From IMG/VR virus record IMGVR_UViG_3300036846_000518, positions 1 through 44,290 of that record: a stretch of 44,290 nucleotides of DNA; one strand, written 5' to 3'. The DNA comes from a virus. This document shows, piece after piece, positions 934 through 44,137 of the stretch. Position 1 is the first letter of the stretch, and every line of letters starts with the position of its first letter. The position numbers and the translations under genes were made by a program. The notes below the pieces were generated by a model. The model was not told the DNA's origin and ran no database searches. It worked only from the letters and a program-made list of their open reading frames with translations.

Positions 934-1623
934 CTAACCTAAACCATTCTTTCTACGATACTCTTCCCGCCACGCCACATCTTCAGGGCTCTCCTCCGTT
1001 ACCGGGCCACGATACACGCCAATTGCGGCCTCCACCGCCAGCTTTTCCGCCACAGCACGCTTCCCCGTCCGCCATTCCTTATGCTTCGCCCACAAATTCC
1101 CCGCCTCCGCGTATTCAAACTGCTTCCGCCAATGATCCGCCACGTCTCTAACCCGGCGCAGTTCCGAAGTAAGCGCCTCAACTGACTTTTCGAGACCGCG
1201 CTTCAGCGCGGGTGTAGTGGTTTTTAAAGCCTTTTCTCTGATAACAGCGGAGGTTTTGTCACCCACCCCCCTTTTGAACCCTAAGCCAATGAGTTTATAG
1301 AGGTTAGTATCGTTTCGGTTGGCGCTTATGCGCCGCGCTATGGTCTCAAGGAGACCCTTCTTCTCAAGACTCCGCAGTACCCGCTGTACGGTGCGAATCG
1401 AGCGCCGCGCCAGCGCCGCCAGCAGAGCTAGAGAAGGACCGAGTATCCCGCGCTGCGCGAAGCTAATAAGAACGCCTAACACCCGTTGCTCAATGGGTGT
1501 TACTGCATCCTCGATATTCTGAGGCATTGGCGTAAACAGGAAACCGGGACGAGCCAGCCGGGTATCCGAGGATTCACAATTTGAAGAGTTGACAGAGAGG
1601 AATGTGTTTGGTAGCGTTTGCAT
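934..1623 (-). CDS. Winged-helix/HTH DNA-binding protein, possible replication or regulatory protein
   Basis: The protein has 229 residues. Roughly residues 40-120 form a helix-turn-helix region of the HTH_36/winged-helix kind: a block reading ALARRSIRTVQRVLRSLEKK followed by GLLETIARR, the pattern of a recognition helix then a wing. The C-terminal half is charged and helical. Such domains occur in phage and plasmid replication initiators and in transcription regulators. With no other replication initiator in the window, a replication role is attractive but inferred. The start is the ATG at 1623, with AAAGGAG upstream; the frame is open back to a TTG at 1704 that has no binding site. The leader just upstream is strongly folded. 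Confidence 0.7.
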   Translation of the reverse strand: MQTLPNTFLSVNSSNCESSDTRLARPGFLFTPMPQNIEDAVTPIEQRVLGVLISFAQRGILGPSLALLAALARRSIRTVQRVLRSLEKKGLLETIARRISANRNDTNLYKLIGLGFKRGVGDKTSAVIREKALKTTTPALKRGLEKSVEALTSELRRVRDVADHWRKQFEYAEAGNLWAKHKEWRTGKRAVAEKLAVEAAIGVYRGPVTEESPEDVAWREEYRRKNGLG

Positions 1624-1644: not shown

Positions 1645-1741
1645 CAACAAAACACCTGCACCATGCGCTATGGGAAGCGCATAGATGTTTTGTCGGGGAA
1701 TCAAAAGTAATTCGAGCGGGGCCGGGTGTTCACCCCGGCCC
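1645..1741 (-). promoter_or_regulatory. Structured leader of the HTH gene (nested hairpins)
   Basis: On the minus strand, an 8-bp stem (ACAAAACA 1693-1686 with TGTTTTGT 1654-1647, extendable by a G-U and a G-C pair) encloses a 6-bp hairpin (ATGCGC/GCGCAT, 1682-1663). The Shine-Dalgarno and ATG of the HTH gene follow. Further upstream, 1719-1741 forms an 8-bp GC hairpin (GGGCCGGG/CCCGGCCC) without a U-tract. These are seen directly; a role in translation control or RNA processing is inference. Confidence 0.5.
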
Positions 1742-1745
1742 TTCT

Positions 1746-1889
1746 CTACGTTTGCAGGTTGAAGCGACTAGAGGGAACTGTGGGATTTACATGCCGCACA
1801 GAGAACTCACAGCCGCTTGAAGACACAGACAGGGAAAAACCTCTCCCAACTTCCAAAATTTTCGCGTGATGTAGAACGTCATGCAGCAT
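1746..1889 (-). CDS. Small ORF (47 aa) behind pseudoknot leader
   Basis: This short frame starts at the ATG at 1889 and encodes 47 residues (beginning MLHDVLHHAKILEVGRG), ending in TAG at 1746. It has a good ribosome binding site (AGGGGAG, 1901-1895) five bases from the ATG. The site directly follows the potential pseudoknot at 1944-1903, and part of the pseudoknot can pair with the site. I do not recognise the product. The binding site and placement support translation, but with so short a frame a leader peptide or a chance ORF is possible. Confidence 0.4.
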   Translation of the reverse strand: MLHDVLHHAKILEVGRGFSLSVSSSGCEFSVRHVNPTVPSSRFNLQT

Positions 1890-1894
1890 TGGCA

Positions 1895-1944
1895 CTCCCC
1901 TACTGATACATGGGGCTGACCGGGGGAGGTATCAGACTCCCCCG
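1895..1944 (-). promoter_or_regulatory. Candidate H-type RNA pseudoknot with anti-Shine-Dalgarno pairing
   Basis: Read on the minus strand, stem 1 is CGGGGGAG (1944-1937) with CTCCCCCG (1928-1921), 8 bp. Its loop holds CTGATAC (1935-1929), which pairs perfectly with GTATCAG (1909-1903), 7 bp. Loop lengths are 1, 0 and 11 nt, a sterically reasonable H-type pseudoknot. The 3' strand of stem 1 (CTCCCC) can instead pair with the ribosome binding site GGGGAG (1900-1895) of the 47-aa ORF. That gives two exclusive states, one exposing and one hiding the site. Pairing is seen; switching is inferred. Confidence 0.5.
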
Positions 1945-1981
1945 ACCACTGCGCCGGTAGCGAACCGACGTTTAGCCTCAA

Positions 1982-2021
1982 AGTCTCGAACAGCGCCGCC
2001 GCCCGATGACAATTCGAGACT
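1982..2021. repeat. 9-bp inverted repeat overlapping promoter -10
   Basis: AGTCTCGAA (1982-1990) and TTCGAGACT (2013-2021) are perfect inverted copies 22 nt apart. One arm overlaps the proposed leftward -10 element (2024-2019). It could be a pair of operator half-sites, or an RNA hairpin if transcription starts further upstream. Confidence 0.5.
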
Positions 2022-2048
2022 ATACGCAGACCCGGCCTTTCTATGCAA
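2019..2048 (-). promoter_or_regulatory. Candidate sigma70-like promoter for left operon
   Basis: On the minus strand there is TTGCAT (2048-2043), an 18-nt spacer and TATAGT (2024-2019), matching the -35/-10 consensus at 4/6 and 5/6. The 1890-2109 interval holds no convincing gene. Transcription from here would give a long structured leader before the 47-aa ORF and the HTH gene. Confidence 0.4.
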
Positions 2049-2109
2049 GTGTCTAAGATTAAAGGGTTAACGATTAAGGTTCAACTTTAAGTGTTGAGAG
2101 CATAGGAAC

Positions 2110-2397
2110 TTATTTTTTTTTCCAAGGTCGTCCTGGCATCGTTTCCGCGACCCGGATCACCTTGGCGACCGCAGCGCGGAGATGCGTGGGAACCTCCAGC
2201 AGCGAACTTTTTTCCAACCTCAGACCCGGCCCGAACTTCAACACCGTAAGACAACCGATGCACACCGAAAAATCGCCAACCACCGGCCTATCCCGCGAGG
2301 TCAGGTTGGTGACAGAATCCAGCTTTTGAAAACAAACCGGGCAGGTGCACAAAGGCACCTGCCCGGTATAGCCATCCCGAATGAACGGATTGAACAT
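2110..2397 (-). CDS. Zinc-ribbon-like hypothetical protein
   Basis: The protein has 95 residues. It contains a CPVC pair near residue 20 and a second CIGC pair about 30 residues later, the arrangement of a small treble-clef or zinc-ribbon fold. The C-terminus is basic and ends in three lysines. The start is set at the ATG at 2397, with AAAGGG about 11 bases upstream; a TTG at 2448 would overlap the preceding gene. It lies 14 bases after the 3-TM protein gene and probably shares its transcript. The function is unknown. Confidence 0.6.
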   Translation of the reverse strand: MFNPFIRDGYTGQVPLCTCPVCFQKLDSVTNLTSRDRPVVGDFSVCIGCLTVLKFGPGLRLEKSSLLEVPTHLRAAVAKVIRVAETMPGRPWKKK

Positions 2398-3945: not shown

Positions 3946-4196
3946 TCCGTTACCTGTTTCTGTTTTGCCACCTCTTTCCGCTTGAGAACCTTTGCAGCTT
4001 CCCGCGTGAGGGTTTTGGTTGCCCAACCGTTGAAGGAGATGCCTTCCGCCTTCGCCGCATTGTGCAAGTTCGTGTTGTCCGCAGCCAAGAGCCGGATGGA
4101 TTGGACGACCACCCCGGTACGGCGCTTAGAGCGCCGCCCTACCCCCTTGGTGTAGCTATTGATTCGGATTTCTTTTGCTTCACGTTTAATTGCCAT
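3942..4196 (-). CDS. Ribbon-helix-helix-like DNA-binding protein
   Basis: This 84-residue protein is rich in Lys and Arg. The segment LHNAAKAEGISFNGWATKTL resembles the C-terminal helices of HicB/Arc-type ribbon-helix-helix proteins (an LxxAAxxxGxSxNxW pattern), which dimerise to bind operators. It is the first gene of its leftward cluster and faces the rightward RusA gene across a roughly 30-bp divergent gap containing the GTGTAGTTAT word, so it could regulate that region. The ATG at 4196 is chosen; a TTG at 4202 is possible and neither has a clear binding site. Confidence 0.6.
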   Translation of the reverse strand: MAIKREAKEIRINSYTKGVGRRSKRRTGVVVQSIRLLAADNTNLHNAAKAEGISFNGWATKTLTREAAKVLKRKEVAKQKQVTE

Positions 4197-40413: not shown

Positions 40414-41106
40414 CTACAGCAGCCCCCGCACCAGCCGGATAATTGCCGCCGCCGTTTCCTCGCTCACGTCGTTAATTTTCATATCGACAGACGACCGCGA
40501 ACCATGAACGTCGATTGTGCGCTCCCCCTCTCTCCCGTAGAGACTCAAATCACCGCGATCAGGATTGATGGCGACCCGCTCCCCCGTAGTCGCTACCACA
40601 TCCGCCAGCCGTTCGAGGATGCCCATTCGCGCTCCGCGAAAATCCGCCGCCGCCCGCGTCCGTTCGTCCAACTTCGCGACGACCGCATAAAACTCGCCCA
40701 TGAACCGCCGCACAATCTCTTTCCCGAGAACCTCGCCGCCGCGAGACTGCGAAACCGAAATGGAAGGCGAGGAGAGACCGTAAGGCATCCCAAGATTGAG
40801 TTCGGACGGCCCAAAATCGTACCAGCCATGAACGTAGAACTTGCCGGAGTGCCCATAGTTATCGCCATCAATCGCGATGCGATGCCCACGCCCCCCGCAG
40901 CGCAACACCGCCCGACACTCATCTCCTTCAATGCCGCTGTTGGGTTCGAGGGCCCACTTAGCCCACGTGCCATCCGCTATTGATGCTTGGTTAAGGATGC
41001 CCGCCACCGTTCGCGCCGCCGCCAGTGTCGCCAGATGCCGCGCCCTTTTTTCGCGCTGTTCCCGTTCGCGTTGCTGTTCCCACGTTTCGTTTGACTTGGT
41101 TTGCAT
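40414..41106 (-). CDS. Hypothetical protein
   Basis: The 230-residue product starts at the ATG at 41106 (AAAGGAT upstream) with a strongly charged helix (EQQREREQREKRARHLATLA). A beta-rich middle follows (RCGGRGHRIAIDGDNYGHS) and a C-terminus with DVHGSRSSVDMKINDVSE. I do not recognise the family. It lies between leader repeats R2 and R3. Confidence 0.55.
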   Translation of the reverse strand: MQTKSNETWEQQREREQREKRARHLATLAAARTVAGILNQASIADGTWAKWALEPNSGIEGDECRAVLRCGGRGHRIAIDGDNYGHSGKFYVHGWYDFGPSELNLGMPYGLSSPSISVSQSRGGEVLGKEIVRRFMGEFYAVVAKLDERTRAAADFRGARMGILERLADVVATTGERVAINPDRGDLSLYGREGERTIDVHGSRSSVDMKINDVSEETAAAIIRLVRGLL

Positions 41107-41123
41107 TGGAATGATCCTTTCGA

Positions 41124-41174
41124 GGTTGAGGGCCGGAGCCCGTTGCGGTTGAGAGCGGGCCCGGAGGCCCGCCC
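41124..41174 (-). repeat. Two-hairpin leader repeat, copy R3
   Basis: This is a complete copy with both cUCCGg hairpins and the CTCAACC tracts. Upstream on the minus strand is TATAGTTAT, a possible -10. It serves the gene starting at 41106. Confidence 0.85.
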
Positions 41175-41184
41175 AATAACTATA

Positions 41185-41346
41185 CTACCAGAACAACCTT
41201 TGTAGCGAATAAGTAATATCAATCGCCGCATCCACCCCGCGAAGCTGTTCAAGGGTTAGAGAGCGATCACAGCAAGCCACACCGTTAAGGTAGCAGCGCA
41301 CCCGCCATATCTTTTCAATCGCACCGAAATCAGTTCTGGGAACCAT
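41185..41346 (-). CDS. Small hypothetical protein
   Basis: The 53-residue protein (MVPRTDFGAIEKIWRVRCYL) starts at the ATG at 41346, with AAAGGAT just upstream. It ends with a helical segment (LTLEQLRGVDAAIDITYSLQRLFW). It lies between R3 and R4. The function is unknown. Confidence 0.5.
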   Translation of the reverse strand: MVPRTDFGAIEKIWRVRCYLNGVACCDRSLTLEQLRGVDAAIDITYSLQRLFW

Positions 41347-41364
41347 GGGGGAGAATCCTTTCAC

Positions 41365-41417
41365 GGTTGAGGGCCGGAGCCCGGTAGAAGGTTGAGAGCG
41401 GGCCCGGAGGCCCGCCC
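41365..41417 (-). repeat. Two-hairpin leader repeat, copy R4
   Basis: This is a complete copy with a slightly longer spacer between hairpins. It precedes the 53-aa gene starting at 41346 with AAAGGAT between repeat and ATG. Confidence 0.85.
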
Positions 41418-41419
41418 GC

Positions 41420-41731
41420 TTAGAATTGGAAGCCATCGAGACGCGCCAACGCCCTATCGCCGCCATACGAGAACATAAACCAGTCAGTATGCAGCAGCAG
41501 CGCCGCCGCCGCCGATCCGAACAATTCATTAAGCCGCGAGTCAATCAAGAGAGCCGCAGCGCCCGCGTCCCTGTAAACGCTATCGCCAATCGTGATAAGC
41601 AGAGAGCAGGAGTTCGCCCGCGAGAGGTTAACAGCGATACCAGCCAAAAGCAGAGTGGCGGATTCGCCCCGCTCCACTGACAAGCTAGTGTGTAAGAGCC
41701 GTTGCATGATGTAGGACTGTGTAGGAGTCAT
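41420..41731 (-). CDS. Hypothetical protein
   Basis: The 103-residue protein begins MTPTQSYIMQRLLHTSLSVE at the ATG at 41731, with AAAGGAT upstream. It has a hydrophobic middle (SATLLLAGIAVNLSRANSCSLLITI) and an Ala/Leu-rich helical stretch later. It may be peripheral to membranes, but this is uncertain. It lies between R4 and R5. Confidence 0.5.
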   Translation of the reverse strand: MTPTQSYIMQRLLHTSLSVERGESATLLLAGIAVNLSRANSCSLLITIGDSVYRDAGAAALLIDSRLNELFGSAAAALLLHTDWFMFSYGGDRALARLDGFQF

Positions 41732-41747
41732 GGAGTAATCCTTTCGA

Positions 41748-41799
41748 GGTTGAGGGCCGGAGCCCGTTAAAGGTTGAGAGCGGGCCCGGAGGCCCGCCC
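41748..41799 (-). repeat. Two-hairpin leader repeat, copy R5
   Basis: This is a complete copy. It lies 16 bases upstream of the ATG at 41731, with AAAGGAT between. Both hairpins have the cUCCGg loop. Confidence 0.85.
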
Positions 41800-41808
41800 G
41801 CCCTGCTT

Positions 41809-42699
41809 TTACGCTGCTACTGTCTTGACGCCTTTCAACTCCGCCATGCGCTCCGCCAACTGCCACAGAGCCCGGTTAAGCCGCACATCCTGATCGATAC
41901 CGCGAACCTCGCGGGTAGTTTCACGGCGGGCCGGGCGACCGTCCGCCGCCGCCCGCCACGCGGAGAGCCCGCCTTTGATGGCGTTTTCTTGAACTACGTT
42001 CATCGTGCGATACAAGTCAGGAGCGGGACGCGACCAGCCATTGGAGGCTTCGCCCGCGCCCGCCCTGTCTTCACTGCGACGCGGAGTTAAGAGAGCCGCT
42101 GGAGTGATAGCCGTTGAAACTTCGCCGTCACTGTCAGCGAAGCGAAGCGTGTGCGCCGCCTCCGCGAATGCGTTTTGTTCGCCCGCTGTAAGGCGGAGCC
42201 CAGACCAATTTTCGATAGTGCCGAGCGCCTTTCGCGAGTCATCAATAATTTGAAAAGACCCTTCGATTACTTGGTTAATAACGTTGCCCTTATGCGGGAT
42301 GGTCAACTCGCCCATGTTGCGCTCACAGACAACCATCCCATTGGTGCAAATCAAGCGAAAGATGCCAGCGAACAACTTATAAGACGATGTGCCATCATGC
42401 GAGTTAACCAGAACAACCTCCGGTATGTTCCCGCCCACTTGAACGGCGGACGCGGACGCATGGCGGAAGCGAATCATGTGCTTTGTAAATTCGCTTTTGC
42501 CTTCGATGCGAGAGCGGGACTGGACAGCTTTAAACGGGCTAAAACCCTCAGCAATGAGCCCGTCAATCACTTCTGATGTTGGAATGTAAGCATATCGGGC
42601 GGAGCGGGACGAATGAGCCTCTACAGCGAAGGCGGAGGGAACAACTGCCCGCAGTTGATCGATGGTGAGAGCGTTAGAGAATGAGCGGTTAAATCGCAT
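41809..42699 (-). CDS. DUF932 (phage/plasmid-like) protein
   Basis: This 296-residue protein has the look of DUF932, a family found in phages and plasmids. RHASASAVQVGGNIPEVVLV then NSHDGTSSYKLFAGIFRLICTNGMVV (in parts) matches the family pattern, ending in a helical C-terminus. Its biochemical role is not known. The ATG at 42699 follows GAAAGGA; the frame is open upstream over leader repeat R6, which should not be coding. It is flanked by leader repeats R5 and R6. Confidence 0.8.
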   Translation of the reverse strand: MRFNRSFSNALTIDQLRAVVPSAFAVEAHSSRSARYAYIPTSEVIDGLIAEGFSPFKAVQSRSRIEGKSEFTKHMIRFRHASASAVQVGGNIPEVVLVNSHDGTSSYKLFAGIFRLICTNGMVVCERNMGELTIPHKGNVINQVIEGSFQIIDDSRKALGTIENWSGLRLTAGEQNAFAEAAHTLRFADSDGEVSTAITPAALLTPRRSEDRAGAGEASNGWSRPAPDLYRTMNVVQENAIKGGLSAWRAAADGRPARRETTREVRGIDQDVRLNRALWQLAERMAELKGVKTVAA

Positions 42700-42716
42700 G
42701 GTGAAATTCCTTTCAA

Positions 42717-42769
42717 GGTTGAGGGCCGGAGCCCAGTCGAAGGTTGAGAGCGGGCCCGGAGGCCCGCCC
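42717..42769 (-). repeat. Two-hairpin leader repeat, copy R6
   Basis: This is a complete copy with the GTCGAAGG-type spacer also seen in the partial copy at 43754. It leads the DUF932 gene starting at 42699. Confidence 0.85.
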
Positions 42770-42773
42770 GCTG

Positions 42774-42959
42774 TTAGTTGGCGAGGTACGTTGTAACCGG
42801 GCACGTTCCAAGTAAATGTTCCTCTACCACCCGGCCAAGACTAAGAGACGTGAGCGGGGCGAACGGGTAAACCTTGCCGTTATAGGCAACGTGGATAACC
42901 TCTTGGCCCGTTGCAAGTTTGGCGGATTCGATTTCGATTTTCAATTGATGTACTCCCAT
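42774..42959 (-). CDS. Small hypothetical protein
   Basis: This 61-residue protein (MGVHQLKIEIESAKLATGQE) starts at the ATG at 42959. It is a compact alternation of strands and a helix (PLTSLSLGRVVEEHLLG). It lies downstream of a promoter-like region and a single-hairpin partial leader. No family is recognised. Confidence 0.5.
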   Translation of the reverse strand: MGVHQLKIEIESAKLATGQEVIHVAYNGKVYPFAPLTSLSLGRVVEEHLLGTCPVTTYLAN

Positions 42960-42973
42960 GTTTGTGAAGTTGC

Positions 42974-42985
42974 GGGCCGGAGCCC
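42974..42985 (-). repeat. Partial leader: single cUCCGg hairpin
   Basis: Only the second hairpin of the leader (GGGC-TCCG-GCCC on the minus strand) is present here. The long GGCCCGC hairpin is absent. It lies between the promoter-like elements and the ATG at 42959. Confidence 0.7.
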
Positions 42986-43005
42986 GGTACAAAATAACTA
43001 CAGAA

Positions 43006-43039
43006 ATAACTATACTCCGATGGGCCCGGATGCTGTCAA
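43006..43039 (-). promoter_or_regulatory. Leftward promoter candidate with TGTAGTTAT words
   Basis: On the minus strand TTGACA (43039-43034), a 19-nt spacer and TATAGT (43014-43009) resemble a sigma70 promoter. TATAGTTAT (43014-43006) and TGTAGTTAT (43002-42994) follow in tandem. It lies immediately after the terminator at 43041-43070, supporting a new transcription unit for the 42959 gene. Confidence 0.55.
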
Positions 43040-43040
43040 C

Positions 43041-43070
43041 AAAAAAATGCGGGCCCGATAAAAGGCCCGC
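43041..43070 (-). terminator. Intrinsic terminator downstream of clamp-loader gene
   Basis: On the minus strand GCGGGCC and GGCCCGC (43070-43049) form a 7-bp stem with a loop including TTTTATCG, followed by A then T residues from 43047 to 43041. This ends the leftward clamp-loader transcript. Confidence 0.75.
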
Positions 43071-43092
43071 GAATACAGGGGAAAACGCCCGC

Positions 43093-43734
43093 CTAAGCTA
43101 CTAGTTGCTCCAATTCCATAAGCGAAGTGCGGATGTTGTTGTTCGCTTCTTTTACGATGCGGGCGAAGTTGGGAGTAGCCGCAGCGGGCGAAGCCTCCGA
43201 ACCCCAGACGCGGGCGAGTAATTCCGTTGCTTCTTTCGCGATACCCCAACTGCTAAAATCCAACTGGAAACAGCGGGATTTGAAGCGAGTCTTAAGGGTA
43301 TCTGTTTCGTTACAGGTGAAAATGAAGATGGTGCGGGCCGGTCTCGCCGTCTCATCCAAGAGCGAAAGAAAGGCATCCTGTGCGGGCCCGCTCATGGAAT
43401 CCGCCTCATCCACTAGGACTAGATGCCAATCCTTGCCAGCCATTGGCAGATATGCCACGCGTTTCTTAATCGACTCAACCGTTTCAACCGTGCACTTTTG
43501 CGAGGGAACGTGAAACAATTCCGCATTAAGTTCGTCCGCCACGGCGAGAGCCATGGTGGTTTTACCAACTCCAGAAGGCCCGCAATAAAGCCATGCGCAA
43601 CTTTTCGGGCGGGCGATCAGTGCCAACATCCGCTCTTTTGGCTTGTCTAGTCCGATAAAATCAGCAACGGCACGCGGGCGATACTTCGATGTGAATACTT
43701 CCGTGTCGGATGTGGCTTGAGTGAATAGCAGCAT
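43093..43734 (-). CDS. Truncated clamp-loader-like AAA+ ATPase
   Basis: The 213-residue protein matches replication factor C/DnaX-type ATPases, which open sliding clamps. Visible motifs are GPSGVGKT (52-59, Walker A), LVLVDEAD (105-112, Walker B), FTCNE (139-143, sensor 1-like) and SRC (153-155, the Arg finger motif). The length is about two thirds of a typical small subunit; the C-terminal collar domain is essentially missing. No clamp or DNA polymerase is seen in the window, so it could act with host factors or in another ATP-driven role. The ATG at 43734 follows AAAGGAT and a partial leader. Confidence 0.8.
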   Translation of the reverse strand: MLLFTQATSDTEVFTSKYRPRAVADFIGLDKPKERMLALIARPKSCAWLYCGPSGVGKTTMALAVADELNAELFHVPSQKCTVETVESIKKRVAYLPMAGKDWHLVLVDEADSMSGPAQDAFLSLLDETARPARTIFIFTCNETDTLKTRFKSRCFQLDFSSWGIAKEATELLARVWGSEASPAAATPNFARIVKEANNNIRTSLMELEQLVA

Positions 43735-43753
43735 AGTGGAGTTATCCTTTCTA

Positions 43754-43773
43754 GGTTGAGGGCCGGAGCCCGG
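43754..43773 (-). repeat. Partial leader repeat upstream of clamp-loader gene
   Basis: The proximal half of the leader (GGGC-TCCG-GCCC plus TCAACC) is intact. The distal hairpin appears replaced by the end of the 43958 gene, whose stop codon lies in what would be the remaining repeat. Confidence 0.65.
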
Positions 43774-43781
43774 TCGAAGGT

Positions 43782-43958
43782 TTAGCGGAACGAATCAGCC
43801 AAAAGTGTGCGTCCGAATTGGTGACCAACTAGAAACGGGCGGTTAAGTTCGATAGCGTGTTGGATGGCAGTGTGCAAAGCCTCTAAGCTGTACAGTTGGG
43901 TTTGCGTGCCAATTCCGGGCCTGTGGTAGATGGTGATGGAGTAGATTGTGCTTGCCAA
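43782..43958 (-). CDS. Small ORF (58 aa) with TTG start
   Basis: On the minus strand, an AAGGT site lies eight bases before a TTG at 43958. The frame encodes 58 residues with a well-formed sequence (ASTIYSITIYHRPGIGTQTQ then a helix ALHTAIQHAIELNR). It ends in TAA at 43782, just at the partial leader of the clamp-loader gene. Another frame with an ATG nearby is less convincing in sequence character. The function is unknown. Confidence 0.5.
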   Translation of the reverse strand: MASTIYSITIYHRPGIGTQTQLYSLEALHTAIQHAIELNRPFLVGHQFGRTLLADSFR

Positions 43959-43974
43959 TGTTGATTACCTTCAT

Positions 43975-43992
43975 TTGAGGGCCGGAGCCCGG
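43975..43992 (-). repeat. Partial leader repeat upstream of the 58-aa ORF
   Basis: The single cUCCGg hairpin (GGGC-TCCG-GCCC, then TCAA) is present, followed by the AAGGT site and the TTG of the 58-aa ORF. Confidence 0.6.
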
Positions 43993-44003
43993 ATTCGTCC
44001 GCG

Positions 44004-44137
44004 AAAGGCCCGCGAGAGCGGTGCGAACTAGTAGAACCATAGGTGAAGGCCCGCCCGCTTGTCAATAATTATTTGGGATGCGAACCCACAAGCCCGCACT
44101 AAAGGCCCGCGAGAGTCATGCGAAAGGCCCGCGAGAG
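44004..44137. repeat. 15-bp direct repeat AAAGGCCCGCGAGAG, three copies
   Basis: Exact copies lie at 44004-44018, 44101-44115 and 44123-44137. The three are all in the same orientation in the region near the right end. No gene is convincingly seen in 43993-44230; a reading frame over this area with a hydrophobic stretch has no good start. Confidence 0.7.
44036..44065 (-). promoter_or_regulatory. Leftward promoter candidate near right end
   Basis: On the minus strand TTGACA (44065-44060), an 18-nt spacer and TATGGT (44041-44036) resemble a sigma70 promoter. It lies upstream of the partial leader and the 58-aa ORF. Confidence 0.5.

Follow-up and report, generated by a model that had tools for sequence, protein, structure and literature searches.

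What is carried on the minus strand just ahead of a 47-codon open reading frame (ORF) at position 1889, and does it form an RNA that controls translation? The stretch of DNA analysed here (the window) is the viral IMG/VR record IMGVR_UViG_3300036846_000518, positions 1-44,290, with a length of 44,290 bases, in which the minus strand carries genes of replication type and the plus strand those for head and portal. An earlier note, made from the letters alone, drew an H-type pseudoknot in front of the ribosome binding site of this ORF and suggested that it acts as a switch. Comparison with related phages makes it probable that the element is an undescribed RNA switch setting the time at which the phage replication protein is made.

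Helices of the leader and their support in related phages

Both stems of the proposed pseudoknot are present when the minus strand is read directly. Stem 1 pairs eight bases, 1944-1937 (CGGGGGAG) with 1928-1921 (CTCCCCCG), and stem 2 pairs seven, 1935-1929 (CTGATAC) with 1909-1903 (GTATCAG), leaving pseudoknot loops of 1, 0 and 11 nt as had been claimed; the Shine-Dalgarno (SD) sequence GGGGAG at 1900-1895 and the ATG at 1889-1887 follow. Stem 1 lengthens to 12 bp (1948-1937 with 1928-1917, including two G-U pairs), forming a hairpin, K1 (1917-1948), with its loop at 1936-1929. Stem 2, called S2 here (1903-1935), joins this loop to the loop (1911-1901) of a hairpin K2 (1897-1915), a third helix that had been missed, in which 1915-1912 (CCCC) pairs with 1900-1897 (GGGG) and hides the SD. 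Across the elements compared K1 is mostly of 10-12 bp with a loop of 6-9 nt and K2 of 3-8 bp.

From 5' to 3' the leader consists of promoter-like hexamers, a hairpin P1, a conserved core with hairpin P2, K1, a linker of 0-4 nt, K2 and the start codon. The promoter-like element of the earlier note is only partly borne out: TTGCAT (2048-2043) and, after an 18-nt gap, TATAGT (2024-2019) recur in the same arrangement in L005, L006 and L021 and as near variants in L011, L012 and L017, with TATAGT a conserved -10 hexamer, but scored by itself the window gives no significant match to the promoter consensus (p = 0.25). The inverted repeat noted upstream, 2020-2013 with 1990-1983, likewise exists, but its left arm is upstream of the predicted transcription start; folds of the relatives suggest a tentative and variable P1 at 1983-2012. 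The core (1946-1976), identified by comparison, is GGCTAAA, P2 and CAGTGG in the window, GGC-N-AAA being the general form, and it is much better conserved than the loops of K1 and K2. P2 pairs 1970-1965 with 1957-1952 around the loop TTCGCTA (1964-1958), and in all members read the second to fourth bases of this loop are U-N-R (CUGAUCC or UUCGCUA type), which resembles the U-turn loops known from antisense systems. The loop sequence UGAUCC could presumably also pair with GGAUCA close to the 3' end of 16S rRNA. Farther upstream, at 2336-2367 (minus strand), an ORF of 112 codons contains a separate 13-bp hairpin followed by T-rich sequence.

Folding of the window by RNAfold, with pseudoknots excluded, gives K1 and a K2-like hairpin at an unremarkable energy (z = -1.16), so that single-sequence folding alone gave no support to the claim and comparison was needed. 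Relatives were obtained with the window portal protein (36 viral contigs) and with a portal profile (74, the two sets overlapping), and several of these carry the element likewise upstream of a small ORF; more members came from DNA patterns for the P2 region and from covariance models R1 and R2, which are limited to the stems of P2 and K1. As queries, the replication protein of the window and an exact DNA pattern gave no relatives, and blastn against phage records returned a short chance match only. All carriers are uncultivated phages and every relative is a metagenome contig; the nearest isolate by portal, Tunturiibacter phage Tunturi_3 (37% identity), is without the element under model R2. 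Pattern matches in bacterial genomes (L080, Bacillus; L081, Clostridiales) and in L135, L136, L138, L141 and L143 were on reading judged to be chance and were set aside. This left 23 distinct elements, the window and 22 from other viral contigs: L005, L006, L011, L012, L017, L021/L058, L026, L027, L029, L032, L035, L036 (an identical element in three records), L037/L066, L038, L044, L045, L123, L132, L133, L134, L139 and L142. The members share ancestry, so that counts over elements are not counts of independent events.

Perfect complementarity of 5-8 nt between loop 1 and loop 2 is found in all 23 elements, in 22 different sequences, with the match averaging 6.6 nt for a loop and its own partner and 2.7 nt for foreign pairs; none of 100,000 permutations reached the observed sum, the borders of K1, K2 and the loops having been placed by hand for the permutation tests. 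This is no product of model building, since the 11 members found by patterns or models that hold no loop pair (L021, L026, L027, L035, L037, L123, L132, L133, L134, L139 and L142) all have 6-8 nt of perfect complementarity, and in L139 and L035 S2 is kept although the K1 stem sequence is largely different. P2 is paired in 100% of cells of the alignment with 5 of its 6 pairs changed on both sides, and K1 in 93.8% with 8 of 11; together this makes 13 of 17 pairs and 96% of cells, counts biased toward structure by the fitting of the alignment to the model. None of 500 shuffles reaches any of the measures, and the signal is lost when the partners are slid by 1-3 columns. The covariation that had been proposed as a check on both stems is therefore present, in K1 as covarying pairs and in S2 as unbroken complementarity.

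The arms of K2 suit their own partner better than permuted arms (26/20,000), and 22 of the 23 elements have an SD-like sequence within or abutting the 3' arm of K2, the exception being L027 with its SD in the loop. In L029, L038, L045 and L037 the K2 stems are weak, at 3-4 bp and near 0 kcal/mol, the energies being a rough guide. On the minus strand G-T pairs outnumber A-C pairs by 25 to 5, and this excess points to an RNA read from that strand. Over 0.67 Mb of contigs from related phages a mechanical two-hairpin descriptor gave 12 matches, each of them at the homologous position; a Markov-shuffled control of equal size gave 2.

As the element lies beside a replication initiator gene, it might be thought that the pairings are due to chance or belong to a structure of the DNA, for instance a replication origin, and not to RNA. 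The permutation and shuffle controls exclude chance, the ratio of G-T to A-C pairs speaks against a structure in DNA, and the SD and start codon remain in register, which makes this explanation extremely improbable. What the comparison backs is an RNA element in which a hairpin loop pairs with sequence downstream, directly before the ribosome binding site of a real ORF.

The putatively gated reading frame and the replication operon

The 47-codon ORF (1746-1889, minus strand) that the earlier note took as the target of control is a genuine ORF, though one that forms a leader in front of a replication initiator. In the 20 members examined the gated start codon opens an ORF of at least 47 codons, against a median of 10 codons in other frames; in L027 the start is inside K2 and its ORF has 52 codons. 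This ORF is either a leader of 47-105 codons before the initiator or the initiator itself, and the leader peptides are of at least two kinds, ...SKSG...NP... and M..GLNFS.GLSSTT.... In most phages an ORF of winged-helix type begins about 200-420 nt downstream of the small leader. In the window it lies at 934-1623 (minus strand), with matches to PHROG 270, replication initiation protein (2.1e-9), and Pfam HTH_36 (2.4e-7); the L017 protein also matches HTH_36, and those of L036 and L037 have no match in Pfam. The gated ORF of L045 is itself a DUF1376 protein, that of L142 looks DUF1376-like on reading, and in L139 a small ORF is, on reading, followed by a helicase-like gene.

The place of the initiator is held in L003 (920-1891, minus strand) by a plasmid-type RepA_C protein (2.6e-20), and the L007 gene is similar; neither contig has the element under models R1 and R2, as if the replication module had been swapped. 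The initiator-like gene downstream of the element, together with RepA_C in L003 without it, indicates that the element travels with a replication module.

A second hairpin, P7 (1651-1690, minus strand), covers a second SD-like sequence, AGGTG, before the replication gene, and was recognised by its recurrence in relatives. About nine of these have the stem variants ATGCG/CGCAT and ACTCG/CGAGT, within a pattern of CCCCTA, ATGCG (or ACTCG), a loop, CGCAT (or CGAGT) and GGNACAGGAG over an SD-like AGGAG, both sides of the stem changing; it stands at the matching place in L005, L012, L017, L021, L026, L035, L036 and L132. P7 may couple translation of the leader and the initiator. Just past the leader stop (1718-1741, minus strand) there is a further hairpin, recurring in relatives on different stems, whose loop resembles GCGGAAC or TGAAC, and at about 1755-1815 on the same strand the SKSG...NP part of the leader ORF lies within a nested hairpin whose loop resembles AAATAAATC. 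RNA structure thus seems to overlap the coding part of the leader.

Further afield on the minus strand, a tRNA with anticodon CTA (named tRNA-Pyl) is predicted by ARAGORN at 4084-4161; it overlaps an ORF and could be an amber suppressor or a false call. At about 41000-44100 similar peptides (GGPPGPLSTxxxGSGPQP, GLRPST) recur in frames between genes, which suggests that several minus-strand genes are preceded by a repeated element of intergenic DNA.

A putative switch and its variable loops

In the switch as first proposed, the off state was formed by the 3' strand of stem 1 pairing with the SD. This pairing reaches 6 bp in only 3 of the 20 elements tested (the window, L005 and L012) and is of 1-4 bp in the other 17, and as it is not conserved that off state is rejected. 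The conserved strand predicted to cover the SD is the 5' arm of K2 and not the 3' strand of K1.

How the three helices could work together is constrained by the linker of 0-4 nt between K1 and K2. On geometry the two loops would face apart, and kissing within one molecule with both stems intact has been set aside for this reason; pairing of the loops would therefore either open K2, giving the H-type pseudoknot, with S2 and K1 adjoining and no unpaired base between them in 21 of the 23, or join two molecules. The SD is on the 3' arm of K2, so that opening K2 would free it, and the conservation of both K2 and S2 fits a two-state switch in which K1 with K2 is off and K1 with S2 is on. A translational switch of this type, in which a hairpin that hides the SD competes with a pseudoknot that frees it, is somewhat favoured as the device gating the phage replication operon. 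In the off state K1 and K2 would both be formed and the SD of the first ORF hidden; in the on state, exclusive of the first within one molecule, the K1 loop would pair with the K2 loop sequence, forcing K2 open. The freed SD would allow translation of the leader ORF and then, by coupling, of the initiator, or of the initiator directly where it comes first. As K1 and the partner sequence of S2 are transcribed ahead of the SD, the on state can form first. The comparison of sequences carries K1, K2 and S2, the strand of the RNA, the place of the SD, the ORF and the gene after it; the exchange of states, which of them is on, the coupling and the trigger are inferred. This trigger could be an RNA, a protein or a small molecule, with the K1 loop or the conserved P2 core as its target. 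Set against a switch in cis are the weak K2 stems of some members and loops that vary more than a cis structure seems to need.

The extent of this variation is large. Between relatives, identity over the final six bases of loop 1 is about 34% whether the flanks are 80-91% or less than 70% alike, with K1 stems at 79-88% identity; between L006 and L011, with flanks at 91% and the aligned genome at 81.5%, 1 of 6 loop bases is shared. Five phages in sample 3300036791 have five different loops, and the window and L005 have the same loop. Such variety points to selection that favours difference, or to recombination exchanging the loops, as with the loops that set plasmid incompatibility, and the loops may also act between molecules; drift with compensation in a cis structure could give this result as well. 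A loop pair that always matches and is yet hypervariable is unusual, and raises the question of whether it serves only as a cis structure or gives specificity between co-infecting phages.

Pairing mainly between molecules would account for such loops. Here K1 of one transcript would kiss K2 of another from the same type of phage, stabilising K2 and shutting off the initiator as transcripts build up, with the variable loop as a tag of self-recognition for copy control or for the exclusion of like phages. In many members both loops are fully used (6/6 in L006, L021, L036 and L132, for example), and in 13 of the 23 loop 1 is complementary throughout from its first base; as this leaves 0 nt for crossing S2, short of fraying at an end pair, these 13 would suit kissing between molecules better than the cis switch. 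The loop diversity described above, within one sample and between L006 and L011, is in its favour too, but the window and L005 have one loop in common, drift or recombination could produce the variety equally, and the finding of no integrase above cut-off in 21 records makes lysogenic immunity unlikely. On balance this reading appears rather unlikely. That the loop pair is a barcode, short, fast-changing and self-complementary, by which transcripts of a phage's own kind are recognised and replication limited or gated accordingly, is doubtful; if true, it would be an RNA-only self/non-self system in a replication leader with no separate antisense gene.

The core invites a different explanation, in which GGCNAAA, P2 with its UNR loop and CAGTGG sense a ligand or protein, and K1 and K2 are a freely varying expression platform. 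Conservation of the core far above the loops of K1 and K2 is the pattern that a sensor with its platform should show, but the core is small with a single hairpin, the gene context is replication only with no metabolic gene, and Rfam holds no match, so that a leader gated in this way must be regarded as distinctly unlikely. Compared with these, the cis switch remains the preferred reading.

Comparison with known systems

The earlier note did not recognise a known riboswitch, and this is upheld by Rfam 15, in which the window reaches the gathering threshold of no family (the only match being a chance one to a lncRNA, E 0.3) and five relatives have no match. No description of the element was found in a literature search in which coverage of subscription journals was thin, and it is apparently an undescribed RNA family common to many uncultivated phages at a control point of DNA replication.

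The guanidine-II riboswitch has two adjacent hairpins with interacting loops close to the SD, but its loops are a fixed motif, whereas those of the element vary freely and are always complementary. PreQ1 riboswitches form an H-type pseudoknot at or beside the SD (reviewed in PMC11625349). The element is like these, SAM-II and other H-type pseudoknot riboswitches in this respect, but it differs in its replication gene context and in that its pseudoknot letters are unconserved, which argues against a binding pocket there. The c4 immunity RNA of phages P1 and P7 is a leader RNA in which loops pair near the ribosome binding site of a small ORF, with the loop letters setting immunity specificity. 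It is, however, a processed trans-acting RNA of the ant operon in temperate phages, whereas the element belongs to a replication operon; the element has no match to c4 in Rfam, and no integrase was found above cut-off in the 21 records.

In its presumed working the element is most like the pseudoknot control of rep genes in IncI and IncB plasmids, but it is no member of that group, and no relation in sequence was found: there is no blastn match among 72,556 plasmids and no Rfam match. Pseudoknot control of repZ/repA is described for IncI-alpha (ColIb-P9), IncB and IncL/M (rep-gene control is summarised in PMC8383071), and the loop letters of plasmid replicons decide compatibility (PMC10724649). 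Plasmids and element share a leader peptide and a hairpin loop that pairs with sequence next to the hairpin holding the SD of a replication gene. In the element this loop pairing is seen in 23 of 23 members, and a leader peptide ORF and a replication initiator, the latter assigned from protein families, are present too. It might follow that control is by an antisense RNA as in IncI, with an RNA from the opposite strand binding the K1 loop and blocking the pseudoknot. The logic and gene context agree with this, and antisense specificity would yield loop variety, but promoter-like sites on the opposite strand are not above shuffles at 17 loci and in the window, which is weak evidence against it; antisense control is considered very unlikely. 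The layout also differs from the IncI type in that the pseudoknot would directly gate the leader ORF (or a DUF1376 initiator), in that the carriers are phages and in that the loops vary far more. With the element, RNA control of replication in the plasmid style would extend to phages that show no tyrosine integrase.
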